This document shows, in pieces, positions 4,680 to 35,650 of a DNA stretch of 35,650 nucleotides. Position 1 is the first letter of the stretch, and each line of letters opens with the position of its first letter. The notes beneath the pieces were generated by a model, which saw only the letters and a list, made by a program, of their open reading frames with translations, did no database searches and was not told the DNA's origin. The position numbers were made by a program, and so were the translations under genes. The DNA is from a virus, in the IMG/VR virus record IMGVR_UViG_3300050119_000068, positions 1 to 35,650 of that record. One strand, given 5' to 3'.

Positions 4680-5162
4680 ATGGCAGGCCGACTTGGCGGG
4701 CCGGACGCTGAGGAGACACTGGCGTTTCGAGCCATCGACAAGGTGTTACGTACCGACCCGTTCCTTGCAACGAAGGGCGTTACGTTCTGTTCGCTCCAAG
4801 GCGACAACGGCGACATGGCCGAGCCGTCGACGGCGCAAATGCCCTACGTCTCCATCGCTCCGGCCGGAGACGGCACGGGATGGTGGTCTGAAAATCAGCA
4901 CAAGAGCGACATTATCACGCTCATTTACATCTACGTCGACGGAACTCATGCCGACGATATTATCAATATGTGGGGTTGGGTCCGTCGGGGGTTATTTCCG
5001 ACCGATCCGGCTCGACTCGCGATCGTCAAGGCGATCATGGGCGATCTCGTCGTCAACGGGGAATTGAATAAGCAAGCCTATTCGGGTTACGCACCGGACG
5101 CCAAGGCCAGTTGCCTCAAGGCCGAAGGCGCGATCAAGCTCCGAATCAACGTCAACACATAG
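4680..5162 (+). CDS. Tail completion/terminator-like protein
   Basis: This encodes 160 residues from ATG 4680, with GGGAG at 4668-4672 as ribosome site. It begins with a helix (AEETLAFRAIDKVLR) and then strands (VTFCSLQ, MPYVSIAP, IITLIYIYVDG). A WGWVRRGLF helix and a second alpha/beta half follow (AIVKAIMGDLVVNG, AIKLRINVN). Size, fold pattern and position immediately before the tail tube gene fit the tail-completion/minor tail proteins (lambda gpU/gpZ-like) that cap the tube at the head-proximal end. The assignment rests mainly on gene order. Confidence 0.5.
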   Translation: MAGRLGGPDAEETLAFRAIDKVLRTDPFLATKGVTFCSLQGDNGDMAEPSTAQMPYVSIAPAGDGTGWWSENQHKSDIITLIYIYVDGTHADDIINMWGWVRRGLFPTDPARLAIVKAIMGDLVVNGELNKQAYSGYAPDAKASCLKAEGAIKLRINVNT

Positions 5163-5174
5163 GCGGTTCAAGTT

Positions 5175-6074
5175 ATGGGATGGGGCGCTCAATCATGGGT
5201 CCGGGGCACTCCCGAACTGACCTATGGGGTTTTCGACACGACCAATATCACGCCGACTTGGTTCCGCCTCGTCGGCGATACTGCGTTTTCCGGCATGCCG
5301 GAGCCACAGCGCAAAGAGCTTATGTCGGCCGACGGAGGCAACCGTCCGGTCCAAAATATCTCGTCGCGGGTCAAAGCGGGCGGCAAGCTCCGCACGCCGT
5401 TTTATCCGACGCAAGCCGCCGCGCTTCTCGCGTTCGCGACGGCTCTGACGAGCAACGATTTGACCTCGTGGACATTCGACCATTTCGACTCGTTTGAGGC
5501 CGTCCGCTACCTGGGTGCAAAGGTCGAGACGCTCTCGCTTTCATGTGCCGCGACGACCGATGAAGGTATTTTGATGGCCGACTTCGGCCTCATCTTCCAG
5601 AAGCCGGACACCGTCGCCCCGACGTTGGCCCAACCGGCCTTCACCGTCTTCCCGACGGAAAATCCCTACGTCCATAAGGAATCCAAAACGGGTTTCACGG
5701 TCGGAGGGTCGGCTCGCTCTCGCTACAATAACTTCAAGTGGGACTTGAAGAATATCCTTGCGCAACCATTCGATGAGGATCAATACATCTCCGCATTGTC
5801 CTATTGCGGACGCACCAACGACTTTTCATCCAACTTCAATTACTCGGCCGCGACCGACCGGACGGCATACGAGGCACAGACCGCGTCAACGTGTTCGATT
5901 CTGTTCACGAAAGTCTCTCCGGCCCATACGTTAAAGCTGGACTTTTCAGCGTCGGGCCGAATCACCAAGCGAAGCCGAACGACTCCGCTTGGTGACTTGT
6001 CGCGTCAGGAATTCAACTTCCGTTCATTCTTCGACGGGACGGCCCTAACCGACTTCATCTCTACCGTGACTTGA
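5175..6074 (+). CDS. Major tail (tube) protein
   Basis: This encodes 299 residues, beta-rich with no membrane segment. It contains the strand-rich stretches expected of tail tube subunits (LTYGVFDTTNITPTWFRLVG, RVKAGGKLRTPFYPTQAAALLAF, LSLSCAATTDEGILMADFGLIF, ILFTKVSPAHTLKLDFSASGRITK) and ends with a short FRSFFDGTALTDFISTV segment. Tail tube proteins stack as hexamers around the tape measure to form the siphovirus tail. The order tail-completion, tube, tape measure supports the call. The stop overlaps the convergent minus-strand gene by 14 bases. Confidence 0.72.
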   Translation: MGWGAQSWVRGTPELTYGVFDTTNITPTWFRLVGDTAFSGMPEPQRKELMSADGGNRPVQNISSRVKAGGKLRTPFYPTQAAALLAFATALTSNDLTSWTFDHFDSFEAVRYLGAKVETLSLSCAATTDEGILMADFGLIFQKPDTVAPTLAQPAFTVFPTENPYVHKESKTGFTVGGSARSRYNNFKWDLKNILAQPFDEDQYISALSYCGRTNDFSSNFNYSAATDRTAYEAQTASTCSILFTKVSPAHTLKLDFSASGRITKRSRTTPLGDLSRQEFNFRSFFDGTALTDFISTVT

Positions 6075-6342
6075 TCGACCGCGACGGTTGCGGCTCGTCG
6101 ATCGGCAAGAGCGGCGACAAGGGGCGACTTCGGGAAACCGGAGTCGCCTCGGTTCGTTTCTCGACCGGAGTCGTCTCGGATCGGGTCGGGAGCAACGCCA
6201 GAACGATCACACCAAGGGGGCCGAACAGGAACGCCAGCGCCAAGCCTTCCTTCGGAGAGCGGCCTTTCTGATCCGCGACGTAGAAGCCAAGCCCCCAAAG
6301 GGCGATCCAAACAACGACCAAAGCAATCTGATACGTGTCCAT
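6061..6342 (-). CDS. Two-helix membrane protein, only minus-strand gene
   Basis: This encodes 93 residues, read right to left. The ATG (complement of 6340-6342) is preceded on its own strand by GGAG six bases upstream. Residues 5-22 (QIALVVVWIALWGLGFYV) and 33-52 (GLALAFLFGPLGVIVLALLP) are membrane helices separated by a charged ADQKGRSPKE loop. The C-terminal 40 residues are polar and basic. The helix-loop-helix with KGR and GPLG matches small bacterial inner-membrane proteins whose function is unknown. It fills the 330-bp gap between tail tube and tape measure, where tail assembly chaperones usually lie. Ribosome site, stop position and coherent membrane topology argue against a chance reading frame. 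Confidence 0.72.
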   Translation of the reverse strand: MDTYQIALVVVWIALWGLGFYVADQKGRSPKEGLALAFLFGPLGVIVLALLPTRSETTPVEKRTEATPVSRSRPLSPLLPIDEPQPSRSIKSR

Positions 6343-6401
6343 TCTGATCTCCGTCGATTCGGGTTCTGCAACGCCACGTCTTCATTATTCGAGAAATCAT
6401 C

Positions 6402-8324
6402 ATGGCGAGCAATGACGAATTGGTCAGATTGATCCTCGACGTTGAGGGCGGGGCCGCGATTGACGACCTAAACGAGCATATTGGTTATACGTCCGCATCT
6501 TTGGATCAGTTGAAAGCGGCTTACGACGCGGGGGACGTCGGCCTTTCCGAATACCTCAAAACCGGCAAGCAGCTTCAATCATCGCTCGATAAGCTCGTCG
6601 GGACGATGGCATCAGTTACGGCCGCTCAACACTCGCAAGTGAATGCTACCACCGAAGCGGCTCAAGCCTGGGCGGCAGAGGCCAATGCGGCCCTCGACGC
6701 CGCAATCGCGACTCGTGAAGCGGCGACGACAGCCGCTCAAGCGTGGGCAGCGGAGGCGAATGCGGCCCTCGACGTGGAGTCGGCCGCAAAGCGGCAAGCG
6801 ATAGCCGTCAAGGAAGCAGCCGAAGCGGAGCGGCTTGCGGCCCTAGCAGCGGCCGAAGCCGCAATCAAGACCTATGAGCTTGCCGATTCTTACAATTTAG
6901 AGGCTCATGCGAGCGACAACGTCACGTCCAATACCGGGCGTCAAGGCTCAATGTTGGAAGGTCTGTCCGCAAAGCAGACCGTCCGAAAACTCGGCATTCT
7001 TTCCTCTCTCGACGCTGAGAAAGAATACAACTCCGTTATCAATGCCGGAGCCGCTTATTCGACGAAGGGAGCCGCCGCGCTGGGATCGGCTGGAAAAGGC
7101 GCGAGCAAAGCCGCCTACCAGATGCAAATGCTGGGAAACACGATCGACGATCTTCAGTATGTTCCCGAGATGGGATTACGACCTATCTTAAATAACATCA
7201 TGATGATTAGTCCGGCAATCGGTATCGGACTCGTCGCTTTCGAGATGCTTCGCAAGGCGGTCGTCTCTTGGATCGGGGAAGCGGAGAAGGCTCAATCTCC
7301 GGTCGAAAAGCTCAAAGACAAGCTCGACGCGCTCAACGCCAAGCCGCTCAAGCTGGCAGTCGACCTGACGGAGATCGACACGCTTACGGCCCGGATCAAA
7401 ACCCTTGAGGAACGCAAATCGGCCCTCGAGTCGACGAAAAAAGGGAGTGCTCAAGACGAACTGGAGAAGGCGACCAAAGAGGCCGTCACCGACGCGGGTG
7501 GTGGATCGGGGGCGCTCTCCAAGTCGGTCTCGAAAGCCTTGGGGCCGCTCAAGGGATTCGTCGAGTCGGGGGATATCACCCGATATGACGAACTGTCCAA
7601 GGCGATCAGGGTGCAAGAAAAACTGTTCGGGGCAAACAAGGGATTCGAGAACCTCAACGTCGATCAACAGGCCAAATACAAGGATATCCGCAAGCGTGCC
7701 GAAGCCGCAAAGAAGAAAGAAGCTGACGACCTGGTTGCGGACGTAGTGCGAGGCGATCCGGCCGCGATCCGTCGGCTCAAGGGGCTTTCCGACGCGCTAC
7801 CGGAAGCGTTCCAACAAACGTCTTCCGAGGGGGAAACGGCCGCGACGGCGATCGACAAGCTACCCGGAAACGCGGCCGAAGCGGGGAAGCGGGTGGCCGA
7901 CGCCAAGTCGAAAAAGAAGCGATGGAAGGCGTTCGATGAGCAACAAAAGGAAGATGAGAAGGAAGGCCGAGAGAACGAGAAAGTTATCAAGAAACTGGCC
8001 GACGACAAGAAATCCGCCGACAAAAAGGCCGCCGCCGTGGACCAAAAGGCCGACGACGATCTTGTGCGGTCGACCGCGAAATGGAAGCGAGACAAGGCGA
8101 GTAAGTCTCGAAAGAAGGCAACCGCCGACAAGGCCGCGATGAAAGTAGCGAGGGAGGCCGTCAGCTTGCAGCAAGCCATGATGAACGCCTCTCAAGTGCT
8201 TGCCGAACAGAATCAACAAATCTTCGGTCAACAAGCAAGCTTGCGCCGACAAGCGAACATGCTTCAACAACAAATGCGACGCCAGCTTCCGAGCGGCGAT
8301 GGCAACTTCAACTCGGAACAATAA
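6402..8324 (+). CDS. Tape measure protein
   Basis: This encodes 640 residues, almost wholly helical. The N-terminus (LVRLILDVEGGAAIDDLNEHIGYT) and early YDAGDVGLSEYLKTGKQL segment are typical of phage tape measure proteins. Residues 85-150 are an Ala-rich coiled coil containing a 13-residue repeat (AQAWAAEANAALD, twice, 25 residues apart). Residues about 262-291 form a hydrophobic segment (IMMISPAIGIGLVAFEML). Residues 500-590 are a very charged Lys/Asp/Glu helix, and the end is Gln-rich. The protein sets tail length and is thought to travel with the DNA at injection. At roughly 0.15 nm per residue it would specify a tail near 95 nm (inference). It lies downstream of the tube gene and upstream of the hub. 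Confidence 0.85.
   Translation: MASNDELVRLILDVEGGAAIDDLNEHIGYTSASLDQLKAAYDAGDVGLSEYLKTGKQLQSSLDKLVGTMASVTAAQHSQVNATTEAAQAWAAEANAALDAAIATREAATTAAQAWAAEANAALDVESAAKRQAIAVKEAAEAERLAALAAAEAAIKTYELADSYNLEAHASDNVTSNTGRQGSMLEGLSAKQTVRKLGILSSLDAEKEYNSVINAGAAYSTKGAAALGSAGKGASKAAYQMQMLGNTIDDLQYVPEMGLRPILNNIMMISPAIGIGLVAFEMLRKAVVSWIGEAEKAQSPVEKLKDKLDALNAKPLKLAVDLTEIDTLTARIKTLEERKSALESTKKGSAQDELEKATKEAVTDAGGGSGALSKSVSKALGPLKGFVESGDITRYDELSKAIRVQEKLFGANKGFENLNVDQQAKYKDIRKRAEAAKKKEADDLVADVVRGDPAAIRRLKGLSDALPEAFQQTSSEGETAATAIDKLPGNAAEAGKRVADAKSKKKRWKAFDEQQKEDEKEGRENEKVIKKLADDKKSADKKAAAVDQKADDDLVRSTAKWKRDKASKSRKKATADKAAMKVAREAVSLQQAMMNASQVLAEQNQQIFGQQASLRRQANMLQQQMRRQLPSGDGNFNSEQ
6660..6774 (+). repeat. Tandem 75-bp-period repeat in tape measure gene
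   Basis: Two near-identical 40-base copies (6660-6699 and 6735-6774) encode AQAWAAEANAALD twice, 25 residues apart. The copies differ mostly at third codon positions, so the repeat is maintained at the protein level and is not a fresh duplication. Confidence 0.85.
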
Positions 8325-13070: not shown

Positions 13071-13358
13071 ATGTTTGAGCTTCGACCCGTTCTTGTCACG
13101 ACATCGAATCGTGGCGTCTTTTTCGGCTTCGCGACCGACACGACCGGCGACACGATCACCCTCGAACGCTGCCGCAACGCGATCTATTGGCCCTCCGACA
13201 CTCAAGGATTCCTCGGTCTCGCAGCTTTCGGACCTCGCAAGGGATGCCGGATCGGCGCAGCCGCCTCGAAGGTTGAACTCCGGGGAATCACCTCCGTCTC
13301 CGAGGTCACTGACCCCAAGGCCGTCGAAGCGTGGGAGTCCTACCCGTGGAGCCAGTAA
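13071..13358 (+). CDS. DUF6948-like small protein
   Basis: This encodes 95 residues. It shows a compact beta-barrel pattern: RPVLVTTSNRGVFFGFATD, then TITLERCRNAIYWPSD, GLAAFGPRKGCRIGAAASKVELRGIT, and a closing helix ending in WSQ. The V-x-V-x-T...G-V-x-F-G...R-N-x-x-x-W...G-P...S/R-I-G order matches what I remember of the DUF6948 family, found in phage and bacterial genomes and of unknown function. Its stop overlaps the start of the GGGTAC-repeat gene. In related loci, as I recall and cannot verify here, DUF6948 genes are linked to Gly-Tyr-Ser-Asp repeats. Confidence 0.6.
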   Translation: MFELRPVLVTTSNRGVFFGFATDTTGDTITLERCRNAIYWPSDTQGFLGLAAFGPRKGCRIGAAASKVELRGITSVSEVTDPKAVEAWESYPWSQ

Positions 13359-13720
13359 TCACCACCACACCCGCCGGGTACGGGTCCGGGTACGGGTCCG
13401 GGTCCGGGTCCGGGGACGGGTACGGGTACGGGTCCGGGGACGGGTACGGGTACGGGTCCGGGTACGGGTCCGGGTCCGGGGACGGGGACGGGGACGGGTA
13501 CGGGTCCGGGGACGGGTACGGGTACGGGTCCGGGTACGGGTCCGGGTACGGGTCCGGGGACGGGTACGGGGACGGGTACGGGTACGGGTACGCGTACGGG
13601 TCCGGGTACGGGTCCGGGGACGGGTACGGGTCCGGGTCCGGGTACGGGTACGGGTACGGGTACGGGTACGGGTACGGGTCCGGGTCCGGGTCCGGGGACG
13701 GGTACGGGTACGAAGAATAA
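13331..13720 (+). CDS. Gly-Tyr/Ser/Asp dipeptide-repeat protein
   Basis: This encodes 129 residues from GTG 13331 (an in-frame GTG at 13346 is an alternative), overlapping the DUF6948-like gene by 28 bases. After about 15 ordinary residues it consists of 56 dipeptides: 26 Gly-Tyr, 19 Gly-Ser, 10 Gly-Asp and one Ala-Tyr, then Glu-Glu. Glycine is always GGG, Tyr TAC, Ser TCC, Asp GAC, quite unlike the rest of the genome where Ser is mostly TCG. The product would be disordered, tyrosine-rich and possibly adhesive or prone to phase separation. Whether it is translated is not certain, because all six frames are open across the tract. Confidence 0.5.
13376..13711 (+). repeat. 336-bp hexamer tract (GGGTAC/GGGTCC/GGGGAC)
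   Basis: Fifty-six consecutive hexamers, in perfect phase with no indel, are GGGTAC (26), GGGTCC (19), GGGGAC (10) and one GCGTAC. Guanine triplets every six bases make the + strand a very strong G-quadruplex candidate. The order of the three unit types is irregular, so the tract is not a simple tandem copy of a longer unit. Confidence 0.95.
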
Positions 13721-18398: not shown

Positions 18399-18621
18399 CC
18401 GTAAGTTAGTAAGTTACGGAAGTTACGGAAGTTGCCACCTCTGCAACGTCCGTAACTTGCGGAAGATTAACTCCTCTCTATCTCTTACGTGGCTTCCGTA
18501 AGTTACGTAAGTTAGTCTTCTGTACACTAGACCTCTGTCTACTAAGTGTATCTTCCGTAACTTACGGTCTTCCGTAACTTCCGTTCTACCTTTGACCCCT
18601 CTTTTTCTTCGTAAGTTACTT
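18399..18621. repeat. Cluster of 13-bp palindromic motifs (iteron/operator array), candidate origin
   Basis: The consensus is CCGTAASTTACGG, itself a palindrome. Sites begin at 18399, 18407, 18416, 18450, 18496, 18505, 18555 (perfect), 18572 and 18609, with 10-13 of 13 bases matching in most. Several sites overlap at 8-9-base spacing. The cluster sits in the longest non-coding gap of the genome, which is AT-richer than its surroundings and directly downstream of the primase-helicase gene. Iteron arrays of this form bind replication initiators, though a cooperative repressor array is the alternative. Bases 18318-18398 hold no recognised feature. Confidence 0.75.
18420..18458. repeat. 16-bp inverted repeat inside the iteron cluster
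   Basis: The arms at 18420-18435 and 18443-18458 match at 15 of 16 positions around a 7-base loop (CACCTCT). The arms contain motif copies in opposite orientation, so the DNA could extrude as a cruciform or fold as an RNA hairpin. Confidence 0.75.
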
Positions 18622-22015: not shown

Positions 22016-22311
22016 CACATGATGAATTCATCAAAGAAGTCGAATCAATCCCACTTGATTATCTGATTCGATGGGTCGAAGGATTCGTATCCACGTTTGA
22101 ACTTAGCTATTTAGGGCTGGATAGTCGATGGATGGCTCGTTTCCGAGGGGGCAATGCCATGTCGCATGGTGCGACCGGGCGACGTGCGATCGACGCGATT
22201 CTCGGCATGCTCCATCAGGCCGAGTTGCTTGCCTCGGTTCTCGACGACTATCGGAAGTCGATCCAGCCGGAGCCGCAAGCCCCCCCTGCCACGAAAGGCC
22301 GTCGAAAATAA
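22012..22311 (+). CDS. Hypothetical small helical protein
   Basis: This encodes 99 residues, coupled to the HNH gene by ATGA. It is mostly helical (DEFIKEVESIPLDYLIRWVEGFV, AIDAILGMLHQAELLASVLDDYRKS) with a Gly-rich middle and a basic Pro-rich end (PPATKGRRK). No family is recognised. Confidence 0.6.
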   Translation: MTHDEFIKEVESIPLDYLIRWVEGFVSTFELSYLGLDSRWMARFRGGNAMSHGATGRRAIDAILGMLHQAELLASVLDDYRKSIQPEPQAPPATKGRRK

Positions 22312-22320
22312 TTCCGAGAT

Positions 22321-22364
22321 TATTACCGTTTGCTACTTGACTCGCCAAGTAGCAAACGGTAATA
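22321..22364. promoter_or_regulatory. Perfect 19-bp inverted repeat (hairpin or operator)
   Basis: TATTACCGTTTGCTACTTG (22321-22339) is exactly complementary to 22346-22364 around a 6-base loop. It starts ten bases after a stop codon and precedes a very small gene. No T-run follows. Such long perfect symmetry is rare by chance and suits a terminator-like RNA hairpin or a strong dimer-binding site. Confidence 0.7.
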
Positions 22365-22406: not shown

Positions 22407-22535
22407 ATGAAAGCCCTCCTCAAGCTGACCCTGACGCTCGCCGCTCTCTTCACCCCGGCCATCTACGTGATTGTCCCGGCCGTCGCGGTCTGCATGTTGA
22501 TGGACTCGATCATGCCCGTTCCGTCCGACGACTGA
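22407..22535 (+). CDS. 42-residue hydrophobic peptide
   Basis: The ATG at 22407 follows CGGAAG. The peptide is one membrane helix: a short basic start (MKALLKL), about 25 hydrophobic residues (LTLAALFTPAIYVIVPAVAV), and a polar MDSIMPVPSDD tail. It lies alone between the 19-bp inverted repeat and the gene at 22567. A small single-pass peptide could be a holin-like or host-modulating membrane protein, but size alone does not prove it. Confidence 0.5.
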   Translation: MKALLKLTLTLAALFTPAIYVIVPAVAVCMLMDSIMPVPSDD

Positions 22536-35025: not shown

Positions 35026-35650
35026 ATGGCACTTCCGGCCGACACGACCTATGAAATCCGAGTGTCGACCGGATCGGACTCGGCTTGCTCGGGTGGGTTC
35101 TCGAATGCGAGCAAGGGAGCCACCGGTGTCGATTACACACAACAGGCCGGAGCACAATTCACGTTCGCTCCGACGCTTTCGGGAGTCGGCACGACGACGC
35201 TTACCGATAGCGCCAGCGGCTTCTCGAATGCGATGCTGGGCAACCTGATTCAAATCACCGGCCAAGGCGTCTATTGCATCGTCGCGTACCTGACTTCAGG
35301 AACCGTTACGCTTGATCGCGCATTAGGAACGTTCTCGACGACGGCCGGTTATATCGGCGGTGCCTTCGCGACCCTGACCAAAGCGGCGGGCTTGATCGTC
35401 GCGGGAAACTCGGCCTGGGCAAAGGCCGAGGCATCCTATCTTGAGACCTTGAGTACGACGACGACGGCCGGAACCGACGCGCTACCGATCACTTGGACCG
35501 GATACACGACGACGCGGGGAGACGGAGGCCAAGTCACGATCGACGCGGGCAACACGCGGGCGAATTGCCTCGTCATCAATAAGACATTCAATCTCTTTAA
35601 TAATTTCATCATGACCGGGGCGACGACCCGTACCGTCGACTTTACCGCGG
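35026..35650 (+). CDS. Right-handed beta-helix virion protein, 5' part (gene crosses the circular join)
   Basis: GGAG lies about ten bases before ATG 35026. Bases 35026-35523 encode residues 1-166; the remaining bases to 35650 duplicate 1-127, and the protein continues at position 1 to total 461 residues. Residues 45-105 (TFAPTLSGVGTTTLTD, LGNLIQITGQGVYCIVAY, SGTVTLDRALG) form a small beta-module related in pattern to the insert in the capsid protein. Residues 155-170 begin the helix-like strands (DALPITWTGYTTTR, then GQVTIDAGN). The layout is an N-terminal attachment domain and a C-terminal beta-helix, as in tailspikes and head fibres. Confidence 0.82.
   Translation, partial: MALPADTTYEIRVSTGSDSACSGGFSNASKGATGVDYTQQAGAQFTFAPTLSGVGTTTLTDSASGFSNAMLGNLIQITGQGVYCIVAYLTSGTVTLDRALGTFSTTAGYIGGAFATLTKAAGLIVAGNSAWAKAEASYLETLSTTTTAGTDALPITWTGYTTTRGDGGQVTIDAGNTRANCLVINKTFNLFNNFIMTGATTRTVDFTA
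35524..35650. repeat. Terminal direct repeat, right copy (circular-contig overlap)
   Basis: Identical to 1-127. Removing one copy gives the 35,523-bp circular unit. Confidence 0.93.

Follow-up and report, generated by a model that had tools for sequence, protein, structure and literature searches.

A reverse-strand gene for a predicted membrane hairpin between the tail tube and tape measure genes of a phage likely to infect Isosphaeraceae

The tail genes of the phage described here enclose one gene that runs against them. It is an open reading frame (ORF) of 93 aa on the minus strand (6061..6342), recovered by a profile match and by a gene caller, and AlphaFold2 models its product, referred to here as P0001, as a membrane hairpin. 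The ORF starts with an ATG at 6342, and six nucleotides before it a Shine-Dalgarno motif, GGAG (6349..6352, minus strand), can be read in the upstream sequence CGACGGAGATCAGAATG. Its final 14 bases are shared with the 3' end of the left neighbour, the major tail tube gene (5175..6074, + strand; Pfam PF18906, Phage_tube_2, E=1e-15). The right neighbour (6402..8324, + strand, 640 aa) is assigned as the tape measure gene from its position, its size and its syntenic homologues in related phages. Before the tube gene lies a tail terminator gene with a predicted lambda gpU-like fold (4680..5162, + strand; AlphaFold2 model, pLDDT 83). Two local signals may bear on transcription. A promoter-like TTGCTC-17-AATAAT lies on the minus strand across the tape measure start codon (6384..6412) and could be put forward as a hypothetical promoter of the P0001 gene; it is a weak candidate, with an equal score in 7.9% of 130-nt minus-strand windows. 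A GC-rich hairpin of 13 pairs (6121..6150) lies inside the minus gene, in its 3' part and 47 nt past the tail tube stop; it is a possible terminator or attenuator for + strand transcription, though statistically it does not stand out from chance in this region.

The window, meaning the whole stretch of DNA that was analysed, has 57% GC and covers a virus record 35,650 bases long. The same 127 bases stand at both of its ends (1-127 and 35524-35650), as in a closed circular assembly or a terminal repeat, and the record probably represents a closed genome, 35,523 bp in length. Gene calling by codon usage gives 46 genes, 45 of them on the + strand and only 6061-6342 on the minus strand, which bears out the original prediction of a lone minus-strand gene. 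Among the products of the genome are a terminase, one portal-like and one coat-like protein, the tail terminator, the tail tube, the tape measure and a large tail protein. Who is the host? Relatives of the tail tube occur in 9 of 45 genomes of Isosphaeraceae, the planctomycete family of Singulisphaera acidiphila, compared with 3 of 392 genomes sampled across the phylum and 23 of 398 genomes of the class at E<=1e-5. For this reason Isosphaeraceae are the likely hosts. Three repeats elsewhere in the genome deserve mention. An inverted repeat with perfect 19-bp arms around a 6-nt loop (22321-22364), far longer than those in shuffled sequences, sits between the genes 22159-22311 and 22407-22535; at 18400-18583 a cluster of repeats of the type CGTAAGTTAGTAAGTTACGGAAG, both direct and inverted, follows a helicase/primase-like gene and is a possible replication origin; and a 12-bp tandem repeat at 13346-13720 encodes a protein made almost entirely of Gly-Tyr/Ser/Asp repeats.

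Is the reverse frame a gene at all? Its length is no proof of coding, as minus-strand ORFs of at least 90 aa are common by chance in a window of this GC content. The family to which it belongs is more telling. A profile built from 22 relatives (bacterial chromosomal proteins and one from a prophage), with the window protein left out, was run against the 470 six-frame ORFs of the window, and its sole match was 6061-6342 on the minus strand (E = 4.7e-23). The best relative found by BLASTP is a Singulisphaera acidiphila protein with 62.5% identity over 48 aa. The GC content at codon positions 1, 2 and 3 of the minus frame (61, 49 and 74%) is like that of the adjoining genes. The profile match, the BLASTP identity, the codon-position GC and the call based on codon usage together confirm, at the level of sequence, that the ORF is a real gene.

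The AlphaFold2 model of P0001 has two hydrophobic helices, residues 3-25 and 30-50 (the latter with a break at 41), at a pLDDT of about 80-88, followed by a basic tail predicted to be disordered (residues 53-93). A membrane hairpin is therefore the predicted architecture, with both helices presumably inserted in the membrane, and the two-helix membrane protein with a proper ribosome binding site that had been proposed earlier stands in both its parts. The sequence carries the motif A-x2-KGRSPxEG...LFGPLG...ALLP. Since the profile matches across both helices as well as the KGRS..GPLG..LLP motif, P0001 is, by sequence, a member of an unnamed KGRS/GPLG family of predicted membrane hairpins of Isosphaeraceae. 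Family searches found relatives in 12 of 45 genomes of this bacterial family, with several paralogues per genome in Singulisphaera. P0001 is homologous to the chromosomal versions (S. acidiphila L006, L014 and L016 among them) over helix 1, the loop and helix 2, but these often carry zinc ribbons or long tails, some of them as fusions, whereas the tail of P0001 is short and basic. A cytoplasmic location of the tail is suggested by its basic character and by the zinc ribbons that several bacterial relatives carry in theirs. When 84,980 genomes were searched for GRSx3Gx7GPLGx5LLP with a degenerate DNA pattern, eight matches came up; three are homologous open frames with the same hairpin, all from Isosphaeraceae, and the other five (L004, L005, L007, L009 and L010) were discarded as chance matches in unrelated ORFs. 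Pfam, PHROG, NCBIfam and PADLOC gave no match for P0001, a scan of the family members at E<=10 gave no credible one, and neither direct tblastn against phages and plasmids nor pattern searches in IMG/VR returned a relative.

What occupies this position in related phages? The tail modules of the relatives were compared over the stretch from tube to tape measure (hereafter the slot), leaving aside L037 and L042, where no tape measure is recognisable, and L076. In four relatives (L038, L039, L048 and L075) the slot is empty, and about 2-25 bp separate the tube from the tape measure. Three others hold a reverse ORF. In the closest relative (L036, with 63% identity in the tube) a minus-strand ORF (6912-7220) for 102 aa lies in a gap of 449 bp; it encodes a zinc ribbon plus a single transmembrane (TM) helix, and the ribbon has homologues in many proteins of other Isosphaeraceae. 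L045 has a 468-bp gap with a minus-strand ORF (6857-7258) for 133 aa with one TM helix and a ribosome binding site (RBS); no relatives of it were found within Isosphaeraceae. Both were considered as diverged versions of P0001 and rejected, the first being not alignable with it and the second without similarity. In L041 a 2.6-kb gap holds two + strand genes and a minus-strand ORF of 307 aa, soluble and HNH-like by eye, without a Pfam match. With that of the window included, three of the four reverse ORFs seen in the slot are predicted membrane proteins. Unrelated membrane ORFs thus recur at one defined position, so that exclusion genes might be sought there from position alone. A further three relatives (L043, L044 and L077) have + strand tail-completion-like genes there, homologues of the window genes 2974 and/or 3674; with these homologues relocated, gene order at the slot appears fluid in this phage group.

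The P0001 family itself turns up elsewhere. In a related prophage, G035, a family member lies near an XRE repressor and a serine integrase, 9 kb before terL, so the family entered these phages at at least two places. Conservation of the minus frame, by which the original prediction was to be judged, therefore has a divided answer: the protein family is conserved, in bacteria and in one prophage homologue, and the same gene in the same place was found in none of the relatives. Reverse-oriented counterparts in prophages, for which a search had also been proposed at the outset, exist as the minus ORFs of L036, L045 and L041, but these are unrelated to P0001 and the one prophage member of its family sits at another site. 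The codon caller reported no minus-strand gene in the structural modules of nine relatives. This absence is weak evidence, because two minus-strand ORFs with support of their own escaped the same run, that of L036, backed by homology, and that of L045, backed by its RBS and TM helix. The caller was trained on phage genes, and its failure to call these two ORFs counts against the reading favoured below.

The P0001 gene lies between two genes that are adjacent in the four relatives with an empty slot, the position by which morons are classically defined. A deviating base composition, which is usual in morons but not obligatory, is not seen, as its GC resembles that of its neighbours. The empty slots, the other minus-strand genes in the slot and the family member elsewhere in a related prophage all strengthen the moron reading. 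The favoured interpretation, given about an even chance, is that P0001 is the product of a reverse moron, that this gene belongs to a noncontiguous late operon but is expressed separately from the tail genes, and that the protein acts in exclusion or anti-tail defence. Its parts differ in strength. The proposal of a late-inserted host-interaction gene holds as regards an accessory insertion, given the slots empty in relatives; an exclusion function is plausible, and separate timing of expression is likely. Both of these are inferred from precedents, namely phi80 Tai, the antisense operons of 80alpha and HK97 gp15, the last by analogy and not by homology.

How might this work? A membrane gene of the Isosphaeraceae family would have been inserted backwards between tube and tape measure, in a lineage without chaperones in the slot, and would form a noncontiguous operon with its + strand neighbours. 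While the late operon is silent, in the prophage or early in infection, the minus gene would be read from its own promoter, and the hairpin protein in the cytoplasmic membrane may interfere with the entry or the tail function of competing phages. When transcription passes through the late operon, it would run against the minus gene and presumably shut it off, sparing the phage's own progeny. A prophage stage fits L036, which is integrated in a 564-kb chromosomal contig and has a tyrosine integrase, for which reasons its lineage is considered temperate. In the window, Pfam found no integrase among the scanned genes and none is homologous to the integrases of the relatives, although these are integrated prophages, and this too counts against the favoured reading. 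So do the weakness of the promoter candidate, the lack of a certain separate terminator, and the absence of a functional label from Pfam, PHROG, NCBIfam or PADLOC; nor is the bacterial family known as a defence gene.

A broader version, tentative and on balance unlikely, would make the tube/tape measure junction of Isosphaeraceae phages a recurrent cassette site, where reverse membrane genes of unrelated sequence are exchanged along with their target, the tape measure, and turned off in the lytic cycle by opposing late transcription. If true, the junction would hold a variable exclusion module matched to the tape measure.

Could the gene be a reverse moron that has nothing to do with phage exclusion? 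P0001 might instead alter the host envelope, the stress response or the fitness of the lysogen, with whatever activity the bacterial paralogues have. This alternative is somewhat unlikely, yet it survives best among the rivals, since the family has close bacterial paralogues, some with zinc ribbons or long tails, in several copies per Singulisphaera genome, and PADLOC gives no link of the family to defence. Against it, the location between tube and tape measure and the unrelated membrane ORFs found there speak for a function connected with the tail, or at least for a site that tolerates any cargo.

Small holins cover a range of size and topology that includes proteins of 93 aa with two TM segments and a basic tail. 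With its two predicted TM helices P0001 falls in this range and could be a lysis-linked protein, like a holin or antiholin, or another membrane protein of the lytic cycle in an odd position. This is a decidedly improbable reading: the gene is reverse to the late operon, whose transcription would oppose expression at the time of lysis, the homologues are, as far as seen, chromosomal paralogues outside lysis cassettes, and no holin family of Pfam or PHROG matches.

The slot is also where tail assembly chaperones would be expected. The earlier observation that no + strand chaperone pair is visible is upheld, as Pfam and PHROG matches reveal none and in the slot of the window no two + frames overlap at a slip site. 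An apparent chaperone pair does occur there in distant planctomycete phages (L080, L082, L083 and L086), as two overlapping + frames: a gene of about 140-160 aa is followed by a continuation frame of about 140-155 aa, with an AAAAAAC or GGGAAAC slip site in the overlap. Cysteines abound in the second frame (CxxCQKY...KGTPENPKSL...CYEHY), and no phage family matched a representative pair of this group. Did the minus gene displace such a G/GT pair, as had been suggested? The distant phages that keep a pair where the window has none would agree with replacement. The much closer relatives with an empty slot, though, are equally without a pair there, so the insertion is not the cause of its absence, and in L043, L044 and L077 tail-completion genes take the place instead. 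Replacement is thus very improbable, and this part of the original prediction is not supported. The usual slot lacks the pair throughout the phage group, whereas the distant planctomycete phages have retained it with canonical slip sites. The upstream genes had been named as possible carriers of a chaperone fold. For gene 4680 this was rejected, since the best PDB matches of its model are tail terminators, lambda gpU (3FZB/8IYD) and T5 p142, at E of about 1e-8; genes 4240 and 4445 show no homology to chaperones and are candidates for an unrecognised chaperone function.

Practically nil is the chance that the minus frame is a by-product of + strand codon bias or of a chaperone gene, for which one could cite the frequency of chance ORFs and a GGGAAAC heptamer on the + strand at 6132: the family match in the P0001 frame alone refutes it, and the heptamer was rejected as a slip site because the + frames there have no ATG, RBS or recognised match and the slip would come about 20 codons past the frame opening, unlike known chaperones.

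How does the favoured reading, a reverse moron with an exclusion or anti-tail role, compare with known systems? HK97 gp15 and P0001 are both small predicted membrane proteins, gp15 reportedly with one TM helix and P0001 with two. In the HK97 annotation the gp15 moron immediately precedes the tape measure gene, but it shares the strand of the tail genes and comes after an intact frameshift chaperone pair, whereas the P0001 gene is on the minus strand and no pair is found. A BLASTP comparison of the two gave E=2.3, that is no sequence similarity, and membership of P0001 in the gp15 family was rejected on this ground. As described in PMC10883804, which cites Cumby et al. (2012), gp15 is a predicted inner-membrane superinfection exclusion protein whose effect depends on the tail tube/tape measure. 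HK97 offers a second parallel in gp23 (NC_002167), annotated as a ‘reverse moron’ and, like the P0001 gene, on the minus strand in the tail operon; it has a terminator annotation of its own and sits between tail genes I and J, beside a + strand moron, and not between tube and tape measure.

For the orientation, phage phi80 offers a precedent. Its Tai gene runs opposite to the Q-driven late operon, as does the P0001 gene to its own, and Tai is made in lysogeny and reduced when Q is made (PMC11364771). Tai blocks tail assembly and is paired with a + strand anti-Tai gene, while no such partner was recognised beside P0001. In the Tha/Ith system of S. aureus 80alpha, an antisense gene with its own promoter lies within a long operon, lysogenic and lytic expression are separated, and the arrangement is that of noncontiguous operons; the defence is triggered by tail proteins (PMC11087260). 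The layout of an antisense gene in an operon is shared with P0001, but there the antisense gene is the inhibitor and not the defence gene, and the system has a HEPN RNase and no membrane hairpin. Reverse morons in late operons have lately been shown to be anti-phage, with orientation mattering, in phi80 (Tai) and in the antisense layout of 80alpha (Tha/Ith), and with gp23 of HK97 the kind is already known. What goes beyond the original finding is that unrelated reverse ORFs, mostly for membrane proteins, occur at one and the same junction in other prophages, and the case of P0001 would place such a reverse-moron site in planctomycete phages.
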